Below, piece by piece: positions 7,858 to 42,836 of a DNA stretch of 64,000 nt. The notes under the pieces are model-generated. The model saw only the letters and a program-made list of their open reading frames with translations, was not told the DNA's origin and ran no database searches. Source of the DNA: Streptomyces sp. HUAS YS2. Lineage in GTDB: Bacteria > Actinomycetota > Actinomycetes > Streptomycetales > Streptomycetaceae. Numbering within the stretch: the stretch's first letter is position 1; each line of letters starts with the position of its first letter. Location of the stretch: positions 2,389,001-2,453,000 of the forward strand of contig NZ_CP137573.1 of NCBI RefSeq assembly GCF_033343995.1, read 5' to 3'. The position numbers and the translations under genes are program-made.

Positions 7858-9357
7858 TCAGACCGCTTCGGCGGTCTCGGGCAGGAGCTGGGTGAGCCGG
7901 TCGGTGAGCTGGACGACCTCGGCGACGTCGCCGAAGTCGCGGGCAGCCGTGTCGACCGTCTTTCGGAGTCGGGTGTTGACGCGCTCGGAGCGGACGCTGC
8001 GGGCGACCCGCAGGGCCTTCTCGGCGAGGGCGACGGACTGTTCCGGCTCGCGCTTGAGGAGGTGCACGGTCGCCATGCCGACGAGGTTGAGTGCGTACGA
8101 CCGCTGGTGCTCGGGGTCCTTCTCGAAGAGTTCGACGGCCCGCTGCATGACGGGTTCGGCGAGGGAGGCGTACGTCGGGGAGCGGCCGGCGACGTAGGCG
8201 AGGTCGCGGTACGAGTGCGAGTTCTCGCCGTTGAGTTCGGCCTCGGAGAAGAAGCGGATCCAGTCGGGCTCGGGCTCGCCGTCGAGGCCGACGTCGGCGA
8301 AGGTGTCCTCGGCCATGCGGACCGCGCGCTTGCACTTGCTGGGCTGGCCCATGTTGGCGTAGGCCCGGGCCTCCATCGCATACAGCATGGCCTGGGTGCG
8401 CGGGGTGGCGCAGTCGCGACTGCCGTACTGGGCGAGGTGGATGAGCTCCAGGGCGTCGTCGGCCCGGCCGAGGTGGATCATCTGGCGGCTCATGGAGGAG
8501 AGGATGTACGAGCCGAGGGGCTTGTCGCCGGCCTCCTTGGCGGCGTGCAGGGCGAGCACGAAGTACTTCTGGGCGGTGGGCTGGAGGCCCACGTCGTAGC
8601 TCATCCACCCGGCGAGTTCGGCGAGTTCGGCCGCGCAGCGGAAGAGGCGGCGGGACGTGGCGCTGGGTTGCGGCTCCTGGAGCAGGTCGGTGACCTCGTG
8701 GAGCTGGCCGACGACCGCCTTGCGGCGCAGTCCGCCGCCGCACTGGGCGTCCCACTGGCGGAACATGACCGTGGTGGATTCCAGCAGGTCGAGTTCGGGC
8801 TGGGAGAGCCGGGAGGGCCGGCCGGAGGAGGCGGCCGGTTCGGCGGGGCCGAGTTCGCCGGTGGGGGTGGGCACCAGCCAGCGCTGCATGGGTTCGATGA
8901 GCGCGGGGCCGGCGGCCAGGGTGAGGGAGCTGCCGAGGAAGCCGCGCCGGGCGAGCATCAGGTCGCTGCGGGAGAACTCGCTGAGCAGGGAGACGGTCTG
9001 CGGGCCGGCCCACGGGAGGTCGACACCGGAGACGGAGGGCGACTGGTGGGCGGTGCGCAGCCCGAGGTCCTCGACGGCGACGACGGAACCGAAGCGCTCG
9101 GAGAACAGCTCGGACAGGATCCGCGGGATCGGCTCGCGCGGCTGCTCCCCGTCCAGCCAGCGGCGGACCCGGGAGGTGTCGGTGCTGATGTGGTGCGCGC
9201 CCATCTGGCGTGCCCTGCGGTTCACCTGCCGCGCCAGCTCGCCCTTCGACCAGCCGCTGCGCACGAACCACGAGCTCAGCTGCTCGTTGGGGCGCTTGCC
9301 GGCAGTCGTACCGTCTGCGCCGTTGCCGCCCACTGGAACGCCCCCATCCATATTCAT
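7858..9357 (-). CDS. nsdA: NsdA, negative regulator of differentiation and antibiotic production
   Basis: NsdA (SCO5582 in S. coelicolor) represses sporulation and antibiotic production; its biochemical role is not settled. The N-terminal part (GWSKGELARQVNRRARQ, then DTSRVRRWLDGEQPREPIP) resembles an XRE-type DNA-binding fold. The C-terminal 300 residues are helical and TPR-like (AAELAELAGWMSYDVGLQPT, ALELIHLAQYG, AMEARAYANMGQPSKCKRAV). The ATG at 9357 gives 499 residues, close to the known 500; an ATG at 9351 has a better-placed AAGGG. A twin-arginine run (ARRGFLGSSLTLAAG) sits inside the protein and is not an export signal at that position. Divergent from the primase-like gene. Confidence 0.88.
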   Translation of the reverse strand: MNMDGGVPVGGNGADGTTAGKRPNEQLSSWFVRSGWSKGELARQVNRRARQMGAHHISTDTSRVRRWLDGEQPREPIPRILSELFSERFGSVVAVEDLGLRTAHQSPSVSGVDLPWAGPQTVSLLSEFSRSDLMLARRGFLGSSLTLAAGPALIEPMQRWLVPTPTGELGPAEPAASSGRPSRLSQPELDLLESTTVMFRQWDAQCGGGLRRKAVVGQLHEVTDLLQEPQPSATSRRLFRCAAELAELAGWMSYDVGLQPTAQKYFVLALHAAKEAGDKPLGSYILSSMSRQMIHLGRADDALELIHLAQYGSRDCATPRTQAMLYAMEARAYANMGQPSKCKRAVRMAEDTFADVGLDGEPEPDWIRFFSEAELNGENSHSYRDLAYVAGRSPTYASLAEPVMQRAVELFEKDPEHQRSYALNLVGMATVHLLKREPEQSVALAEKALRVARSVRSERVNTRLRKTVDTAARDFGDVAEVVQLTDRLTQLLPETAEAV

Positions 9358-9782
9358 GCCCTTGGTGCCCTTGTCGCGTGAACTCCCCACAGGATGCCGT
9401 GAATCACAGCTCCCGTCCGGGGGTCGTACCCCTTCGAACAGGAAACCGGCTTGCCTCCGGCATACCCACGAGAGCGACCAATCCCTGAGTTCGTGTACCG
9501 AAAGTAATCCTACGATCACCCCCTCGGCCATGGCGATTCAAGAAACGCCACCATTCGCCACCCCTACGGGGGAACCCGCCGCCCACGGAACGCGATTCAC
9601 TTGACATGCGACGATCCGGGGTCGATGCACGGTTGCGCACGGCGGCGTGCGCCAGGCATCGCACCACCCCTCCCGTTTCCGCGCGCCACGTCACCCGGAC
9701 GAGTCCGGGCCCGGACGCGACGGAGCGTCACAGGGGCACTCCGGCTCGTAACCACCGGCGAGTTCGACCCGTTGGAGGGGGC

Positions 9783-12862: not shown

Positions 12863-14296
12863 TTAGCCCATCTCCTCCAACGCCTTGCCCTTCGTCTCCT
12901 TGACGTACCGCAGCACGAAGGGGATCGAGAGCACGGCGAAGACCGTGTAGATCACGTAGGTGCCGGACAGGTTCCAGTCGGCGAGCGACGGGAAGCTGGC
13001 CGTGATGGCCCAGTTGGCGATCCACTGCGCGGACGCGGCGACGCCGAGCGCGGCGGCGCGGATCCGGTTGGGGAACATCTCGCCGAGGAAGACCCAGACC
13101 ACCACGCCCCAGGAGAGGGCGAAGAAGAGCACGAAGACGTGGGCGGCGACGAGCGCCACGACGCCCTGCGCGGTGGGCAGCTTGCCGTCGACGAGATCGG
13201 CCGAGAACGCCCAGGCCTCGAAGGCGAGCGCGATCGCCATGCCGACGGAGCCGACGAGCGCCAGCGGCTTGCGGCCCACCCGGTCGACCAGGACCATCGC
13301 GATCACGGTGCCGACGATGTTGATGATCGACGTGGTGAACGAGTAGAAGAACGAGCTCGACGGGTCGATGCCGACGGACTGCCAGAGCGTCGAGGAGTAG
13401 TAGAAGGCGACGTTGATGCCGACCAGCTGCTGGAAGACCGAGAGTCCGATGCCGACCCAGACGATGGGCAGCAGCTTGAAGCGGCTGCCGGCGACCAGCA
13501 GGTCCTTGAAGGTGGACTTGTGCTCGCTGCGCATCGCCAGCTCGATCTCGGCGACGCGGTGGTCGAGGTCGACGCCGTGGCCCTCGACCTCGGCGAGCAC
13601 CTCCTTGGCCCGGTCGGTCTTCCCTACGGAGATCAGGAAGCGCGGCGACTCGGGGATCGCGAAGGAGAGCAGGCCGTAGAGCAGGGCGGGCACGACCATG
13701 ACGCCGAGCATCCACTGCCAGGCCTCCAGGCCGCCGATCTCGCCACGCTGGTCGCCGTCGGCGAGCTGCAGGATCCCGTAGTTGACGAGCTGGGAGACGG
13801 CGATGCCGATGACGATGGCGGCCTGCTGGAAGGAGCCGAGCCGGCCGCGGTAGGCGGCGGGGGCGACCTCGGCGATGTACGCGGGGCCGATCACCGAGGC
13901 CATGCCGATGGCGAAGCCGCCGATGATCCGCCAGAAGGCGAGGTCCCACAGCGCGAACGGGAGCGCGGAGCCGACGGCGCTGATGGAGAACAGCACGGCG
14001 GAGATCTGCATGCAGCGGATGCGGCCGATGCGGTCGGCCATCCGGCCGGCGGTCGCGGCGCCGATGGCACAGCCGATCAGGGCGATGGCGATGACCTGCG
14101 CGAGGGTGCCGGAGCCGATGTCGTACCGGTCGCGGATCGCCTCGACGGCGCCGTTGATGACGGAGCTGTCGTAACCGAAGAGGAAACCGCCCATGGCCGC
14201 GGAGGCCGTGATGAAGATGACGTGTCCGAGATGGTCCGGATGGGCGGCCCGGCCCTCCGAGGGCGGCGGCGTGGGGGCCTTCGCGGCACTGGTCAC
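12863..14296 (-). CDS. glcP: Major facilitator sugar permease, GlcP-type glucose transporter
   Basis: A proton-sugar symporter of the MFS sugar-porter family. In S. coelicolor the gene at this position (SCO5578) encodes glucose permease GlcP, needed for glucose uptake and carbon repression. The GTG at 14296 with AGGAG upstream gives 477 residues and 12 predicted membrane segments. Signatures include GGFLFGYDSSVINGA in helix 1, GRMADRIGRIRC, PESPRFLI in the central loop, QQLVGINVAFYY in helix 7, and DRVGRKPL. The upstream region is packed with inverted repeats. Confidence 0.88.
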   Translation of the reverse strand: MTSAAKAPTPPPSEGRAAHPDHLGHVIFITASAAMGGFLFGYDSSVINGAVEAIRDRYDIGSGTLAQVIAIALIGCAIGAATAGRMADRIGRIRCMQISAVLFSISAVGSALPFALWDLAFWRIIGGFAIGMASVIGPAYIAEVAPAAYRGRLGSFQQAAIVIGIAVSQLVNYGILQLADGDQRGEIGGLEAWQWMLGVMVVPALLYGLLSFAIPESPRFLISVGKTDRAKEVLAEVEGHGVDLDHRVAEIELAMRSEHKSTFKDLLVAGSRFKLLPIVWVGIGLSVFQQLVGINVAFYYSSTLWQSVGIDPSSSFFYSFTTSIINIVGTVIAMVLVDRVGRKPLALVGSVGMAIALAFEAWAFSADLVDGKLPTAQGVVALVAAHVFVLFFALSWGVVVWVFLGEMFPNRIRAAALGVAASAQWIANWAITASFPSLADWNLSGTYVIYTVFAVLSIPFVLRYVKETKGKALEEMG

Positions 14297-14343
14297 ATGG
14301 ACTCCTGGGGCCCGGGCGGCGTCGCCGGGGGTGGGGGGCGAGC

Positions 14344-14490
14344 CCTTCAAGTGGCGCACAACTTCACGCCGCCCACCACTTGAAGGTAAAAGCAACGTTG
14401 CAGAGACTATTCCTTCAAGTTTCGAAGTCAATACCCGGGATCGAATGAGCCGCAGAGTTCCCCTCGGGACTGGATGTTCAAGTCTTGAAC
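14344..14490 (-). promoter_or_regulatory. glcP upstream region with several palindromes
   Basis: The gap between the smc stop and the glcP start holds a cluster of dyads. An 11-base inverted pair (CCTTCAAGTGG at 14344-14354, its complement at 14376-14386) is spaced about three helical turns apart. A perfect palindrome GCAACGTTGC (14392-14401) resembles LacI-family operators. CCTTCAAGTTTCGAAG (14412-14427) repeats the same half-site. A perfect dyad GTTCAAG-T-CTTGAAC lies at 14476-14490. CTTCAAG/GTTCAAG is shared by four of these elements. I read this as an operator array for glcP; the regulator is unknown. Confidence 0.65.
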
Positions 14491-14519
14491 ATACTCTCGG
14501 ATGCGGGCCGTGTGTGGGC

Positions 14520-17500
14520 TCAGCGCAGCCGCTGGCTGATGACCTTCGAGACGCCGTCGCCCTGCATGGACACCCCGTACAGCGCGTCCGCGACCTCCAT
14601 CGTCCGCTTCTGGTGCGTGATCACGATCAGCTGGGAGGACTCCTGGAGTTCCTGCATGATCCGGATCAGCCGCTGGAGGTTGGTGTCGTCGAGCGCCGCC
14701 TCGACCTCGTCCATCACGTAGAACGGGCTGGGCCGGGCCTTGAAGATGGAGACCAGCAGCGCCACGGCGGTCAGCGAGCGCTCGCCACCGGACAACAGCG
14801 ACAGCCGCTTGACCTTCTTGCCCGGCGGGCGGGCCTCGACGTCGACACCGGTGGTGAGCATGTTGTCCGGATCGGTCAGGACGAGCCGGCCCTCGCCGCC
14901 GGGGAACAGCCGGGAGAAGACGCCCTCGAACTCGCGGGCGGTGTCCCGGTACGCCTCCGTGAAGACCTGCTCGACCCGCTCGTCGACCTCCTTCACCACC
15001 TGAAGGAGGTCGGTACGGGTCTTCTTCAGGTCCTCCAGCTGCTCGGAGAGGAACTTGTGGCGTTCCTCCAGCGCCGCGAACTCCTCCAGGGCGAGCGGAT
15101 TCACCTTTCCGAGCTGCTGGTACGCCCGTTCGGCCGCCTTGAGCCGCTTCTCCTGCTCCGCGCGGACGAACGGGCGGGGCTGGTTGCGCGGGTGGTCGGG
15201 GTCCTCGGGCAGCTCCTCGCCCTCGGCGGGCGGGGCCGGCGGTACGAGCTGGTCGGGGCCGTACTCGGAGACCAGCCCGGCCGGTTCGACGCCCAGTTCC
15301 TCCAGGGCCTTGGTCTCCAGCTGCTCGATCCGCATCCGCTTCTCGGCGCCGAGGACCTCGCCCCGGTGGACCGAGTCGGTCAGCTTGTCGAGTTCGGCCT
15401 TCAGGTCGCGGCCCTGGGCGCGGGCGGCGGCGAGCCCCTGCTCGCGGGCCGCCTTCGCGGCCTCGGCGAGGGCCCGTTCCTGCTCGGCCCGGACCACGGA
15501 GACCTCGACGTGCGCGAGGAGGGTACGGGTGCCGGCCGCGACGGCGGCGGCGACCTCGGCCTCGTGGCGCAGCCGGGCGCGGCGCTGTTCGGCGCGGGCC
15601 CGGGCCTCGCGCTCGGCGCGGGCGCCGCGGTCGAGGGAGTCTGCCCGGCCGGCCAGGCCCTTGACCCGCTCCTCGTGGGTACGGACCTGGAGCCGGGCCT
15701 CCATCTCGGTCTGGCGGGCGTTGGCGCCGTCGGCGGCGAGCCGGTCGCGGACGGAGGTGTCGGGCTCCTCCTCCGCCGGGGACTCCTCCGCGACGAGCAG
15801 CCGCTCCGTCAGTTCCTCGGCGTCGATGAGGGCCTTGTCCAGGGCCTCCTGCGCGCGGGTCGCCGCGGCGGCGGCCCGCTCGGCCTCGCCGGCCGCGCCG
15901 CGGGCCTGCCCGGCGAGGCGGCCGAGCCGCTGGGCGACCGCGGACTTCTCCCGGTCGGCGGTACGGCGCCGCTCCCCCAGCTCCTCGACGAGCCCGGCGG
16001 CGGCGCGGCGCCGCTCGACCGCGGCCTCCTGCGCCTCGGCCAGCTCCGCGCAGCGCACGGCCAGCTCGGCCAGCTCGGCCGCGGCCTCGTCCACGGACGC
16101 CTGCACTTCGAGCAGACTGGGCGCGCCGGCGGAGCCACCCTGCGCGAAGTGCGCCCCGAGCAGATCCCCCTCTGCAGTGACGGCGGTGACCCCGGGCCGC
16201 GCGTAAACGACCTCCTCGGCCTCCTCCAGCGTCCCGACGACAACGATCCCATCGAGCAACCGCCACACGGAACCGAGGAGTTCGCCGGGACCCCGCACGT
16301 ACTGGGCGACGGGCGCGGGGGCGAGGGCAGGCGTTCCGCCGGCCACGGAGCCGGACCCCGCCGGCACGGCAGCCGATGCGTCCGGCCCGCCCTGCGCGGG
16401 CGCGCGGGTCTCGCCGCGATCGACCGATCCGGCCGGCGTACCGGCCGCCGGGTCACCGGCCACGGAGCCGGACCCCGGCGCGACCGCGCCCACGGAGGGC
16501 CGGCCGCCGTCGGCGGCGGCGTGCGCCTGCCCCGCCGGGGCCGCGTCAGGCGCTGCCGGCACGGCAGCCGACGCGTCCGGGCCGCCCTGCGCGGGCGCGC
16601 GGGTCTCGCCGCGATCGGCCGACCCGGCCGGCGTACCGGCGGCCGGGTCGCCGGCCACGGAGTCGGATCCTGGCGCGGCCTCGGCCGCCGAGGGCCGAGC
16701 GCCCTCGGCGGCATCGTGCGCCGGCCCGCCGGTCGGCCCTGCCGTGCGGCCGGCGGCCTCGCCGTCCGCGCGCTCGGGCTCCGGCCACTCCGTGCCTGTC
16801 ACCAGGAGGGCCGCTCGGCCGCCGTCCTGTTTGCGCAGGAGGCGGATCGCTTCCGCCGCCGCTCGTGGGTCCGCGACCGCGACGGCGTCGGCGGCCGCGC
16901 CGAGGGCGGCGGCGACCGGGACCTCGAAGCCGGGGGTCACCGTCAGGAGTTCGGCGGCCGGGCCGAGCAGGCCGGTCAGGGTGTCGCGGGCGGCGAGCAG
17001 CGCGCCCGTACCGTCCTTGCGGCGCAGGCCGAGCGCGAGGGCCTCGTGGCGGGCCTGGGTCGCGGCGCGGCGGCGTTCGGCCGCGGTCGTCGCCTCGCGG
17101 GCGGCGGTCAGCGCGGACTCGGCGTCGGCGAGGGCGCCGCGGGCGGCCTCGTGCCGCTCGCCCAGCTCGGTGTCGTCCGCGTCGAGCCCGTCGACCTCCG
17201 CCTTGAGCTGCTCGTACTCCTCCTGGGCCGCCTCCGCCCGCTCCGCCGCCTCGTCGCGCGCCGCGGCGAGCCGGTCGATCTCGGCCTGCGCGGACGCGGC
17301 CCGTGAACGGGCCGCGTTGACCTGCCCGTGCAGCCGGGCCAGGCCCTCGCGCCGGTCGGCGATCGCCCGCGCCGCGTCCTTGAGCCGGCGTTCCTCGACC
17401 GCGAGTTCGCGCTCCAGTTCGGCGCGGTGGGCGACGGTGTCCTCCAGGGCCCGTTCCGCCGCCTCCAGCGCGGCCTCGAGCTCCGCCTCCTGCTCGCGGA

Positions 17501-18509
17501 TCCGGGCGGCCTCGCGCTCCATGTCCTCCGGGTCGCGGCCCCGCCGCTCCTCCGCGGGCTGCGCGGTGGCACTCTTCACCCGCGCGTCGGCCAGCGAGAT
17601 CGTGCCGCGTACCCGCTCGGCGAGCTGGGAGAGTTCGTACCAGGTCTGCTGGGCGCGCTGGAGACGAGGCGCGAGCCGCCGCACCTCGTCCTCGAGTTCG
17701 GCCTCGCGGGACTGCGCGGCCCGCAGCTCCGCCTCGACGCTCTCCTTGCGGGCGAGCAGCGCTGCCTCGTCGGCGACCTCGGCGCTGAGCGCCTCGCGGA
17801 GCCGGACGAGGTCGTCGGCGAGCAGCCGCAGCCGCGCGTCGCGCAGGTCGGCCTGGATGACGGCGGCGCGGCGGGCGACGGCCGCCTGCCGGCCGAGCGG
17901 CTTGAGCTGCCGGCGCAGTTCGTCGGTGAGGTCCTGGACGCGCGCGAGGTTCGCCTGCATCGCGTCGAGCTTCCTCAGCGCCTTCTCTTTCCGCTTGCGG
18001 TGCTTGAGGACGCCGGCCGCCTCCTCGATGAAGGCGCGCCGGCCGGTCGGGTCGGCGTGCAGGACGGAGTCCAGCTGGCCCTGGCCGACGATGACGTGCA
18101 TCTCGCGGCCGATGCCGGAGTCGGAGAGGAGGTCCTGGATGTCGAGCAGCCGGCAGGTGTCGCCGTTGATCTGGTACTCGCTGCTGCCGCCCCGGAACAT
18201 GATCCGGGTGATGGTGACCTCGGCGTAGTCGATGGGCAGCGCGCCGTCGGAATTGTCGATCGTCAGCGAGACCTCGGCGCGGCCGAGCGGCGGCCGGCCG
18301 GTCGTGCCGGCGAAGATGACGTCCTCCATCTTCCCGCCGCGCAGCGACTTCGCGCCCTGCTCGCCCATGACCCAGGACAGCGCGTCCACCACGTTGGACT
18401 TGCCGGATCCGTTCGGCCCGACGACGCACGTGATGCCGGGTTCGAACCTCAGCGTGGTGGCCGAGGCGAACGACTTGAACCCGCGCAGGGTCAGGGCCTT
18501 GAGATGCAC
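14520..18509 (-). CDS. smc: Chromosome condensation protein SMC with enlarged hinge
   Basis: ATPase of the SMC-ScpAB condensin that compacts and segregates chromosomes. It starts at ATG 18509 (MHLKALTLRGFKSFASATTL). Walker A GPNGSGKS is at 31-38, the signature LSGGERSL near 1235, and Walker B with VMDEVEAALDD near 1260; the arms are long coiled coils. At 1329 residues it is about 140 longer than the roughly 1186 of S. coelicolor SMC (from memory). The excess is an Ala/Gly/Pro-rich stretch at about 580-735, inside the hinge, built from a 39-residue unit repeated 2.3 times. The reading frame stays open, so it looks functional. A stem-loop separates it from the small coiled-coil gene upstream. 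Confidence 0.96.
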   Translation of the reverse strand: MHLKALTLRGFKSFASATTLRFEPGITCVVGPNGSGKSNVVDALSWVMGEQGAKSLRGGKMEDVIFAGTTGRPPLGRAEVSLTIDNSDGALPIDYAEVTITRIMFRGGSSEYQINGDTCRLLDIQDLLSDSGIGREMHVIVGQGQLDSVLHADPTGRRAFIEEAAGVLKHRKRKEKALRKLDAMQANLARVQDLTDELRRQLKPLGRQAAVARRAAVIQADLRDARLRLLADDLVRLREALSAEVADEAALLARKESVEAELRAAQSREAELEDEVRRLAPRLQRAQQTWYELSQLAERVRGTISLADARVKSATAQPAEERRGRDPEDMEREAARIREQEAELEAALEAAERALEDTVAHRAELERELAVEERRLKDAARAIADRREGLARLHGQVNAARSRAASAQAEIDRLAAARDEAAERAEAAQEEYEQLKAEVDGLDADDTELGERHEAARGALADAESALTAAREATTAAERRRAATQARHEALALGLRRKDGTGALLAARDTLTGLLGPAAELLTVTPGFEVPVAAALGAAADAVAVADPRAAAEAIRLLRKQDGGRAALLVTGTEWPEPERADGEAAGRTAGPTGGPAHDAAEGARPSAAEAAPGSDSVAGDPAAGTPAGSADRGETRAPAQGGPDASAAVPAAPDAAPAGQAHAAADGGRPSVGAVAPGSGSVAGDPAAGTPAGSVDRGETRAPAQGGPDASAAVPAGSGSVAGGTPALAPAPVAQYVRGPGELLGSVWRLLDGIVVVGTLEEAEEVVYARPGVTAVTAEGDLLGAHFAQGGSAGAPSLLEVQASVDEAAAELAELAVRCAELAEAQEAAVERRRAAAGLVEELGERRRTADREKSAVAQRLGRLAGQARGAAGEAERAAAAATRAQEALDKALIDAEELTERLLVAEESPAEEEPDTSVRDRLAADGANARQTEMEARLQVRTHEERVKGLAGRADSLDRGARAEREARARAEQRRARLRHEAEVAAAVAAGTRTLLAHVEVSVVRAEQERALAEAAKAAREQGLAAARAQGRDLKAELDKLTDSVHRGEVLGAEKRMRIEQLETKALEELGVEPAGLVSEYGPDQLVPPAPPAEGEELPEDPDHPRNQPRPFVRAEQEKRLKAAERAYQQLGKVNPLALEEFAALEERHKFLSEQLEDLKKTRTDLLQVVKEVDERVEQVFTEAYRDTAREFEGVFSRLFPGGEGRLVLTDPDNMLTTGVDVEARPPGKKVKRLSLLSGGERSLTAVALLVSIFKARPSPFYVMDEVEAALDDTNLQRLIRIMQELQESSQLIVITHQKRTMEVADALYGVSMQGDGVSKVISQRLR
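16335..16670 (-). repeat. Tandem repeats inside the smc hinge coding sequence
   Basis: Two near-identical 117-base units (16554-16670 and 16359-16475, offset 195 bases) and the start of a third (to about 16335). Each unit encodes a 39-residue block beginning GSxSVAGDPAAGTPAGS and ending DASAAVPA. Copies one and two are separated by a 26-residue spacer; copies two and three abut. All periods are multiples of three, so the frame is kept. Confidence 0.9.
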
Positions 18510-42305: not shown

Positions 42306-42381
42306 TGGTACCCCCGACCGGATTCGAACCGGCGCTACCGCCTTGAGAGGGCGGCGTGCTAGGCCGCTACACAACGGGGGC
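42306..42381 (-). tRNA. tRNA-Glu (CUC), copy 1
   Basis: Acceptor GCCCCCG pairs with the 3' strand; the anticodon loop CTCTCAA on a CCGCC/GGCGG stem gives anticodon CUC; the T-loop is TTCGAAT. 76 bases including an encoded CCA. Confidence 0.97.
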
Positions 42382-42422
42382 AAGATCTTGACCACGCGAC
42401 GGAGTCGCATGATGTTACTGCG

Positions 42423-42494
42423 CTGGCCTACCAGGACTCGAACCTAGACTAACTGAACCAGAATCAGTCGTGCTGCCAATTACACCATAGGCCA
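42423..42494 (-). tRNA. tRNA-Gln (CUG), copy 1
   Basis: Acceptor TGGCCTA with TAGGCCA; anticodon loop TTCTGGT on ACTGA/TCAGT gives CUG. 72 bases; CCA is not encoded. Confidence 0.97.
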
Positions 42495-42512
42495 CTGGTG
42501 GTTTAGACCAGT

Positions 42513-42588
42513 TGGTACCCCCGACCGGATTCGAACCGGCGCTACCGCCTTGAGAGGGCGGCGTGCTAGGCCGCTACACAACGGGGGC
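42513..42588 (-). tRNA. tRNA-Glu (CUC), copy 2
   Basis: Identical to copy 1 over the mature sequence, CCA encoded. Anticodon CUC. Confidence 0.97.
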
Positions 42589-42649
42589 CCTAGCGATCCT
42601 GCATCGGGTCCACCGGGTGCGACCCAGGTGATCCCGCGGGAAGGATCTG

Positions 42650-42722
42650 TACCCCCGACCGGATTCGAACCGGCGCTACTGCCTTGAGAGGGCAGCGTGC
42701 TAGGCCGCTACACAACGGGGGC
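42650..42722 (-). tRNA. tRNA-Glu (CUC), copy 3
   Basis: Same as the other Glu copies except for one compensated base pair in the anticodon stem (CTGCC/GGCAG instead of CCGCC/GGCGG), and no encoded CCA (the sequence after the discriminator A is CAG). 73 bases. Confidence 0.96.
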
Positions 42723-42764
42723 TTTGTGGATGAGATCCACGTACGTGCAGATGAGCTCTGCGAG

Positions 42765-42836
42765 CTGGCCTACCAGGACTCGAACCTAGACTAACTGAAC
42801 CAGAATCAGTCGTGCTGCCAATTACACCATAGGCCA
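42765..42836 (-). tRNA. tRNA-Gln (CUG), copy 2
   Basis: Same mature sequence as Gln copy 1, without CCA. First gene of the five-tRNA run, reading Gln-Glu-Glu-Gln-Glu on the minus strand. Confidence 0.97.

Follow-up and report, generated by a model that had tools for sequence, protein, structure and literature searches.

A pair of predicted operators in helical register at the Streptomyces glcP promoter, with counterparts upstream of ppdK

The Cra (FruR) protein of enteric bacteria, a member of the LacI family, uses a single type of operator to repress sugar uptake and glycolysis and to favour gluconeogenesis. Repressors of the NagC/Mlc type are sugar-responsive ROK proteins with looped operators, and NagC acts from two operators in helical phase. 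In Streptomyces, glucose enters via an MFS permease and not via the PTS, and glucose sensing is described as an open problem, according to a review (PMC8966007). The most glucose-induced genes of S. coelicolor are reported to be glcP1 and glcP2, about 20-fold up on glucose relative to agar and independently of Glk (PMC4848846). Nothing combining glcP with 'inverted repeat' was found in the open-access literature searched.

The window, a 64-kb stretch of Streptomyces DNA, contains glcP (12863..14296, minus strand), which encodes a sugar porter family MFS transporter with a GTG start at 14296. The upstream gene is smc (14520..18509, minus strand; TIGR02168, 911 bits, above the cut-off), and the region studied here is the intergenic gap between the smc stop at 14520 and the glcP start. 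In a profile search, GlcP passed the sugar-porter model TIGR00879 (335 bits against a cut-off of 237.8); the top-scoring model, XylE, and the staphylococcal GlcP model both fell short of their cut-offs. GlcP is 84–96% identical to its counterparts in 80 Streptomyces loci. Its substrate is presumably glucose, an assumption taken from the gene name in an earlier sequence-only reading of this DNA and from the smc-glcP order in S. coelicolor. Elsewhere in the window, the gene for NsdA, which represses development and antibiotic production (7858-9531; score above the NF050130 cut-off), begins 3.3 kb past the end of glcP, and five tRNA genes, three for Glu and two for Gln, lie at 42306-42836 on the minus strand.

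The sequence-only reading had pointed to elements sharing CTTCAAG or GTTCAAG within 147 bases of the gap, and all of them are present at the positions it gave. The 7-mers CTTCAAG, GTTCAAG, CTTGAAG and CTTGAAC occur 22 times in the 64 kb, five of them in this gap, and other 147-base stretches of the window hold at most two each. Among 20,000 Markov sequences matched to the gap in dinucleotide make-up, the mean was 0.06 such words and none reached five. The clustering of CTTCAAG-type words in the smc-glcP gap is far above chance.

Along the glcP strand (minus for all elements), the first element is a perfect dyad, noted earlier as 15 bases long, which extends to 19 bases (ATGTTCAAG-T-CTTGAACAT, 14474-14492). 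Inside it lies the distal predicted operator, a dyad of the form TTCAA-nnn-TTGAA (14477..14489). The predicted -35 hexamer TTGACT (14426..14431) follows 42 bases on, with columns 0–5 at 95–100% in 22 cluster representatives, and then, after a spacer of 16 bases, the predicted -10 hexamer TAGTCT (TAnnnT, 14404..14409), whose first two bases and final T never vary in the same representatives. The spacer holds the proximal predicted operator TTCGAAACTTGAA (14414..14426), which is conserved in the ungapped promoter core; CTTCAAGTTTCGAAG, around 14413-14427, is an imperfect dyad. A strict sigma-70 promoter scan called no promoter at glcP. Downstream of the -10 hexamer are the decamer GCAACGTTGC (14392..14401), spanning the predicted transcription start at about 14397, an 11-base inverted pair (CCTTCAAGTGG at 14344-14354 and its exact reverse complement CCACTTGAAGG at 14376-14386), a small hairpin just 5′ of the Shine-Dalgarno sequence (14311..14330, with 7 of 8 pairs forming in the window), the Shine-Dalgarno sequence AGGAG itself (14302..14306) and the GTG start.

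Phylogenetic footprinting of the gap, an approach proposed with the sequence-only reading, showed that this arrangement is conserved. The 80 Streptomyces loci were gathered by GlcP protein alone (one record is titled Microtetraspora glauca), and 70 of them have a recognisable ungapped core that runs from the -35 box to the leader start. Spacing counts were made on these 70 relatives plus the window (71 loci), excluding the 10 loci without a recognisable core (under 35/56). In 48 of the 71, the distal dyad TTCAAnnnTTGAA lies at offset -58 relative to the -35 box; shuffled upstream sequences gave a modal position count of at most 5 in 200 rounds. This offset is common to 22 groups that differ in spacer sequence, and between the two dyads the columns carry little information, with conservation near background. 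The proximal dyad scores 9/10 or 10/10 in 51 of the 71 loci.

Measured centre to centre, the two dyads are 62 (1 locus), 63 (48), 64 (7), 65 (3) or 66 bp (3) apart, for a total of 62/71 at 62–66 bp; longer distances are 73–76 bp (7) and 96–98 bp (2), and none of the 71 loci falls at 67–72 or 77–95 bp. The best distal dyad reaches only 6–7 of 10 in 7 of the 71, a score common in shuffles, and among the loci not spaced at 63 bp are related species whose dyads are weak. Restricting the count to distal dyads of at least 8/10 (64 loci) gave 42 at 63 bp, 56 at 62–66, 6 at 73–76 and 2 at 96–98. The evidence for a constant spacing of 63 bp, equal to six helical turns, is strong. The whole set of distances fits 6, 7 and 9 turns with an excess of up to 3.5 bp. 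When the groups with another spacing than 63 bp were put to a Rayleigh test, R was 0.81 at 10.5 bp (22 groups), a value inflated by small drifts around 63; with perfect dyads only, 6 groups were left (p about 0.008), and periods of 9.5–11 fitted about equally. Wider phasing beyond 63 bp is thus suggestive. Taken together, the alignments support two predicted operators at the glcP promoter that belong to one regulator, stand in helical register and are kept across the genus. Such operators had been part of the sequence-only reading; two of them hold, and the relevant pair is 14477-14489 with 14414-14426.

In its full form, the earlier model describes one four-element array in which the inverted pair is bound as well, as two operators three turns apart, together with a LacI-type operator at GCAACGTTGC. 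CTTCAAG is indeed common to all the elements in the window, and the decamer is perfectly palindromic, yet we regard this model as very improbable. As an exact word the decamer occurs once in the 7.88-Mb genome, and not at other sugar genes. It is exact in 38/71 loci, and the forms in the other 33 include no palindrome. No compensated change was seen, and its conservation is no better than that of neighbouring columns. A LacI-type operator was rejected on these grounds, and GCAACGTTGC is best seen as a putative start-site sequence.

The inverted pair is predicted to fold as the stem of an RNA hairpin in the 5′ leader (14344..14386; 13 bp plus an inner helix of 5 bp), as judged from the fold, pair counts and matches to the model R1 described below. 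The whole leader has a z of -1.75 and is not unusually stable overall; 15 of 200 shuffles fold as well. Alignment A1 comprises the window and 34 relatives out of 62 distinct leaders, hand-chosen for the long stem form, so its pair counts do not cover species with short hairpins. In these 35 leaders, the named structure is paired in 87.3% of cells, against 37–49% when slid, and 26 cells are changed on both sides, against 8.4 when shuffled. Of these 26, the small hairpin before the Shine-Dalgarno sequence accounts for 19 and covaries in relatives (for example columns 80-93, C-G 22 and U-A 9), while the main stem accounts for 7, spread over 4 of 18 pairs. Pairs with two-sided change number 7, which one slid version equals, and the RNAalifold covariation term is small (-0.52). 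Since two-sided changes are few there, the case for the main stem leans more on conservation, G.U pairs and one-sided changes, together with the short-hairpin species outside A1, whose arms stay complementary around different loops.

The TTCAAG half-sites of the pair are not conserved. Pair 22-54 is broken in 23/35 leaders with most other pairs kept; core column 51, which follows TTCA in the first arm, is free to vary, and only a minority of leaders have CTTGAAG as the second arm. Model R1 of the leader matches 21/25 Streptomyces genomes and, weakly, 2/16 others, and several genomes carry weaker second matches. The stem match is kept in 10/10 promoter-less loci, some of them weak (weakest E 0.11, the E-values being rough), and of the 9 promoter-less leaders folded alone, L027 folds otherwise. 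The match was absent in 3 of 38 sources (L059, L062 and L067). In L017, L021, L025, L038 and L055, glcP follows smc, the promoter core is absent and the leader-stem match is present; in the L017 and L021 genomes, ppdK retains its dyad. Because the half-sites are not conserved, pairing is largely kept and the match survives promoter loss, the inverted pair, exact as it is in the window, is better read as a predicted leader hairpin stem than as two operators, and the same three points count against the four-element array. The observation behind the sequence-only reading is real; its interpretation is half right.

A stem that adjoins smc might be only a terminator or other 3′-end structure of the smc mRNA, and in several promoter-less loci it does lie close behind the smc stop. 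We consider this improbable: a terminator scan found no terminator-like site, and in the window the stem lies 134 bases past the smc stop and downstream of the glcP promoter. Among the 20 best R1 loci, the smc end is adjacent in 20/20 and GlcP in 19/20, so position alone is not decisive. A search of Rfam 15 over 13800-15000 gave five matches, all below the gathering score and none at 14297-14519. Returning to a glcP leader, our own guess is that its hairpins probably act on mRNA stability or translation. A leader peptide (GTG GTG ... TGC GCC ACT) was also tried; its frame is open by eye in many loci, yet an in-frame stop interrupts it in L049 and short hairpins take the place of the stretch in several species, and the candidate was rejected.

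A search for the dyad near other genes, likewise proposed earlier, revealed a recurring second target, ppdK, which encodes pyruvate phosphate dikinase. The two exact dyads of the window's genome, both TTCAAnnnTTGAAC, sit at glcP and upstream of ppdK, a fragment of whose product scored 638 bits with TIGR01828, short of the cut-off for the whole protein. When one mismatch was tolerated, this genome yielded about as many dyads as the reversed control. A dyad survey of 61 genomes gave 10 sites, of which 7 are at ppdK, 1 at glcP and 2 in one homologous coding region. A survey for TTCAAnnnTTGAA covered 38 species from the 80, among them the full set of 10 without the promoter, and gave 34 sites against 5 in the reversed control: 16 at glcP (3 of them the proximal dyad; 14 assigned by position relative to the GlcP-fetched loci), 10 at ppdK and 8 elsewhere. 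The sequence GTTCAAnnnTTGAAC, sought in 80 genomes of the order, occurs at 15 Streptomyces sites (5 at glcP, two of these, L200 and L203, assigned by reading translations; 8 at ppdK; 2 elsewhere) and at 2 more outside Streptomyces, with 1 in the reversed control.

As selection by motif was to be avoided, ppdK promoters were also fetched by protein similarity. This gave 60 promoters from 61 genomes, taking the best copy in each and excluding 16 matches at 63–66% identity, which are further ppdK copies. Two dyads of at least 7/10 lie 72–75 bp apart (seven turns) in 45 of the 60, compared with a mean of 0.17 and a maximum of 1 in shuffles; 15 promoters fail this test. Under a looser limit, 53/60 have a pair, 44 of them at 73 bp (shuffles 0.9, maximum 3). 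Relative to a conserved downstream block the pair lies at -102 (7 loci) or at -112/-113 (43 loci), a difference of one turn; of the rest, 3 lack the block and 7 lack the pair. Roles within the pair vary, the distal dyad being perfect and the proximal weak in some species and the reverse in others, and many ppdK promoters extend the TTCAAnnnTTGAA dyad to TTGCGTTCAAnnnTTGAACGCAA. One operator type is thus found at an uptake gene (glcP) and at a gluconeogenic gene (ppdK), as in the Cra system, and the role in carbon control suggested earlier is backed by these like operators. The open-access literature searched contained no glcP-ppdK link in Streptomyces. Separately, most aligned ppdK promoters (for example L002, 1433-1444 and 1532-1545) have the conserved palindromes GCTCAGATGAGC and CGCTCAnnTGAGCG on either side of the distal dyad, with a terminator-like stem behind dusB in between; a second regulator possibly acts there.

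Published expression data suggest opposite responses of the two genes, with the caveat that they come from two S. coelicolor papers using differing comparisons, and that the promoters read here belong to other species: next to the glucose induction of glcP1 and glcP2, ppdk2 (SCO2494) is reported as 30-fold and ppdk1 as 11-fold higher on Tween than on glucose (PMC7494193). The ppdK genes studied here are likely orthologues of ppdk2. We infer that one Cra-like regulator serves both glcP and ppdK. A homodimeric regulator would recognise TTCAAnnnTTGAA, and at glcP two dimers 63 bp apart on one face of the helix would be joined through a short DNA loop. Because the proximal site falls within the spacer of the promoter, where a dimer should block RNA polymerase, repression of glcP would be expected. 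At ppdK, the phased pair 73 bp apart lies upstream of the gene, in what appears to be an activator position, and the bound regulator should activate or at least not block. Operators inside the glcP promoter, pointing to repression, and upstream of ppdK, where activation is allowed, lead to a switch model: in the absence of glucose, the regulator would occupy its sites, with glcP off and ppdK on; with glucose, the sugar or a sugar phosphate would release the regulator, turning glcP on and ppdK off.

The dyads could instead form an activator site for the glucose induction of glcP. That glucose induces glcP (PMC4848846) agrees with this, as does the centre of the distal dyad 52 bp 5′ of the first -35 base, in phase with the proximal dyad. 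The proximal dyad, however, lies in a spacer of normal length (16 bases), where from its position a bound dimer would exclude polymerase, and we consider an activator unlikely. The repressor-based switch, taken whole with its two operators, Rok7B7 as the likeliest regulator and the leader hairpins, is in our view probable.

Rok7B7, of the ROK family, is the most likely regulator, with about an even chance of being the protein involved. The S. avermitilis Rok7B7 consensus, which we take to be TTKAMKHSTTSAV, fits the promoter of xylF, a known Rok7B7 target, at 13/13 in 30/30 loci. Measured against the same assumed consensus, the distal glcP dyad (14477-14489) fits at 12/13 in the window, as do five other places in the 64 kb, and it scores at least 12/13 in 38/71 loci; the ppdK dyad of the window's genome fits at 12/13, judged by eye, and the proximal glcP dyad at only 8–11 of 13 in 69/71. 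The gene rok7B7 was found in 61/61 genomes, so its presence does not discriminate. Among the best 30 of 61 rok7B7 loci, 27 promoters have a conserved 8/10 dyad, the best score reached, against a shuffled expectation of 1.6%. An autoregulation search covering ROK genes only (17 loci) found 15 without an 8/10 dyad nearby, two dyads at L089 (rok7B7) and one at L093. The rok7B7 promoters (L167-L196) also carry conserved YTCAASSTCTTGAC and GTTCACAWGTTGGA-like elements 42–44 bp apart, about four turns.

Alternatively, the two-operator system may be run by another carbon regulator, which Rok7B7 resembles only in the half-site CTTGAM, and we rate this just short of an even chance. In S. avermitilis, glucose is reported to raise the affinity of Rok7B7 for xylFGH (PMC8966007), an effect of the wrong sign for glcP and hence a misfit with its induction by glucose; in S. 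coelicolor, glucose raised xylFGH and rok7B7 instead (PMC4848846). Gel shifts with S. coelicolor Rok7B7 failed, as told in PMC4856308, and the xylF site TTTACTYCTTGAC is poor as a TTCAAnnnTTGAA dyad (7/10). Against another regulator stand the fit of the distal glcP dyad to TTKAMKHSTTSAV, the dyad in the rok7B7 promoters, and the review PMC8966007, in which a figure legend has Rok7B7 repressing glcP and the text includes glucose uptake among new Rok7B7 targets in S. avermitilis. OsdR was rejected as a candidate, since it is reported to bind upstream of the other S. coelicolor ppdK, SCO0208, via a different motif (PMC5069765).

If the switch model is true, its regulator would be the missing link of Streptomyces glucose control. 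The operator pair common to glcP and ppdK poses a direct question, namely which protein sits on TTCAAnnnTTGAA and what releases it, and the answer bears on the carbon repression of antibiotic production.

Among known systems, a close case comes from S. coelicolor, with dyad repeats at both glcP1 and glcP2, which the accessible part of their description mentions without sequence, partner gene or mechanism. The Rok7B7 (SCO6008) regulon is alike in having glcP as a repressed target (PMC8966007) and in a consensus that, as we assume it, fits the distal glcP and ppdK dyads; it differs in that the reported glucose effect is opposite and in that the accessible descriptions do not include the phased pair, ppdK or reciprocal expression. 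The NagC/Mlc type is alike in that NagC uses two phased operators; operator sequence and spacing at glcP differ, and a loop at glcP is a prediction of the model. The operator of Cra differs from TTCAAnnnTTGAA, and only two genes recur here. We put forward, tentatively, that Streptomyces may possess its own Cra-like master switch, with glcP and ppdK as core regulon and operator pairs at six and seven helical turns, and that glcP may also be under the control of a new leader RNA family that outlives the promoter.
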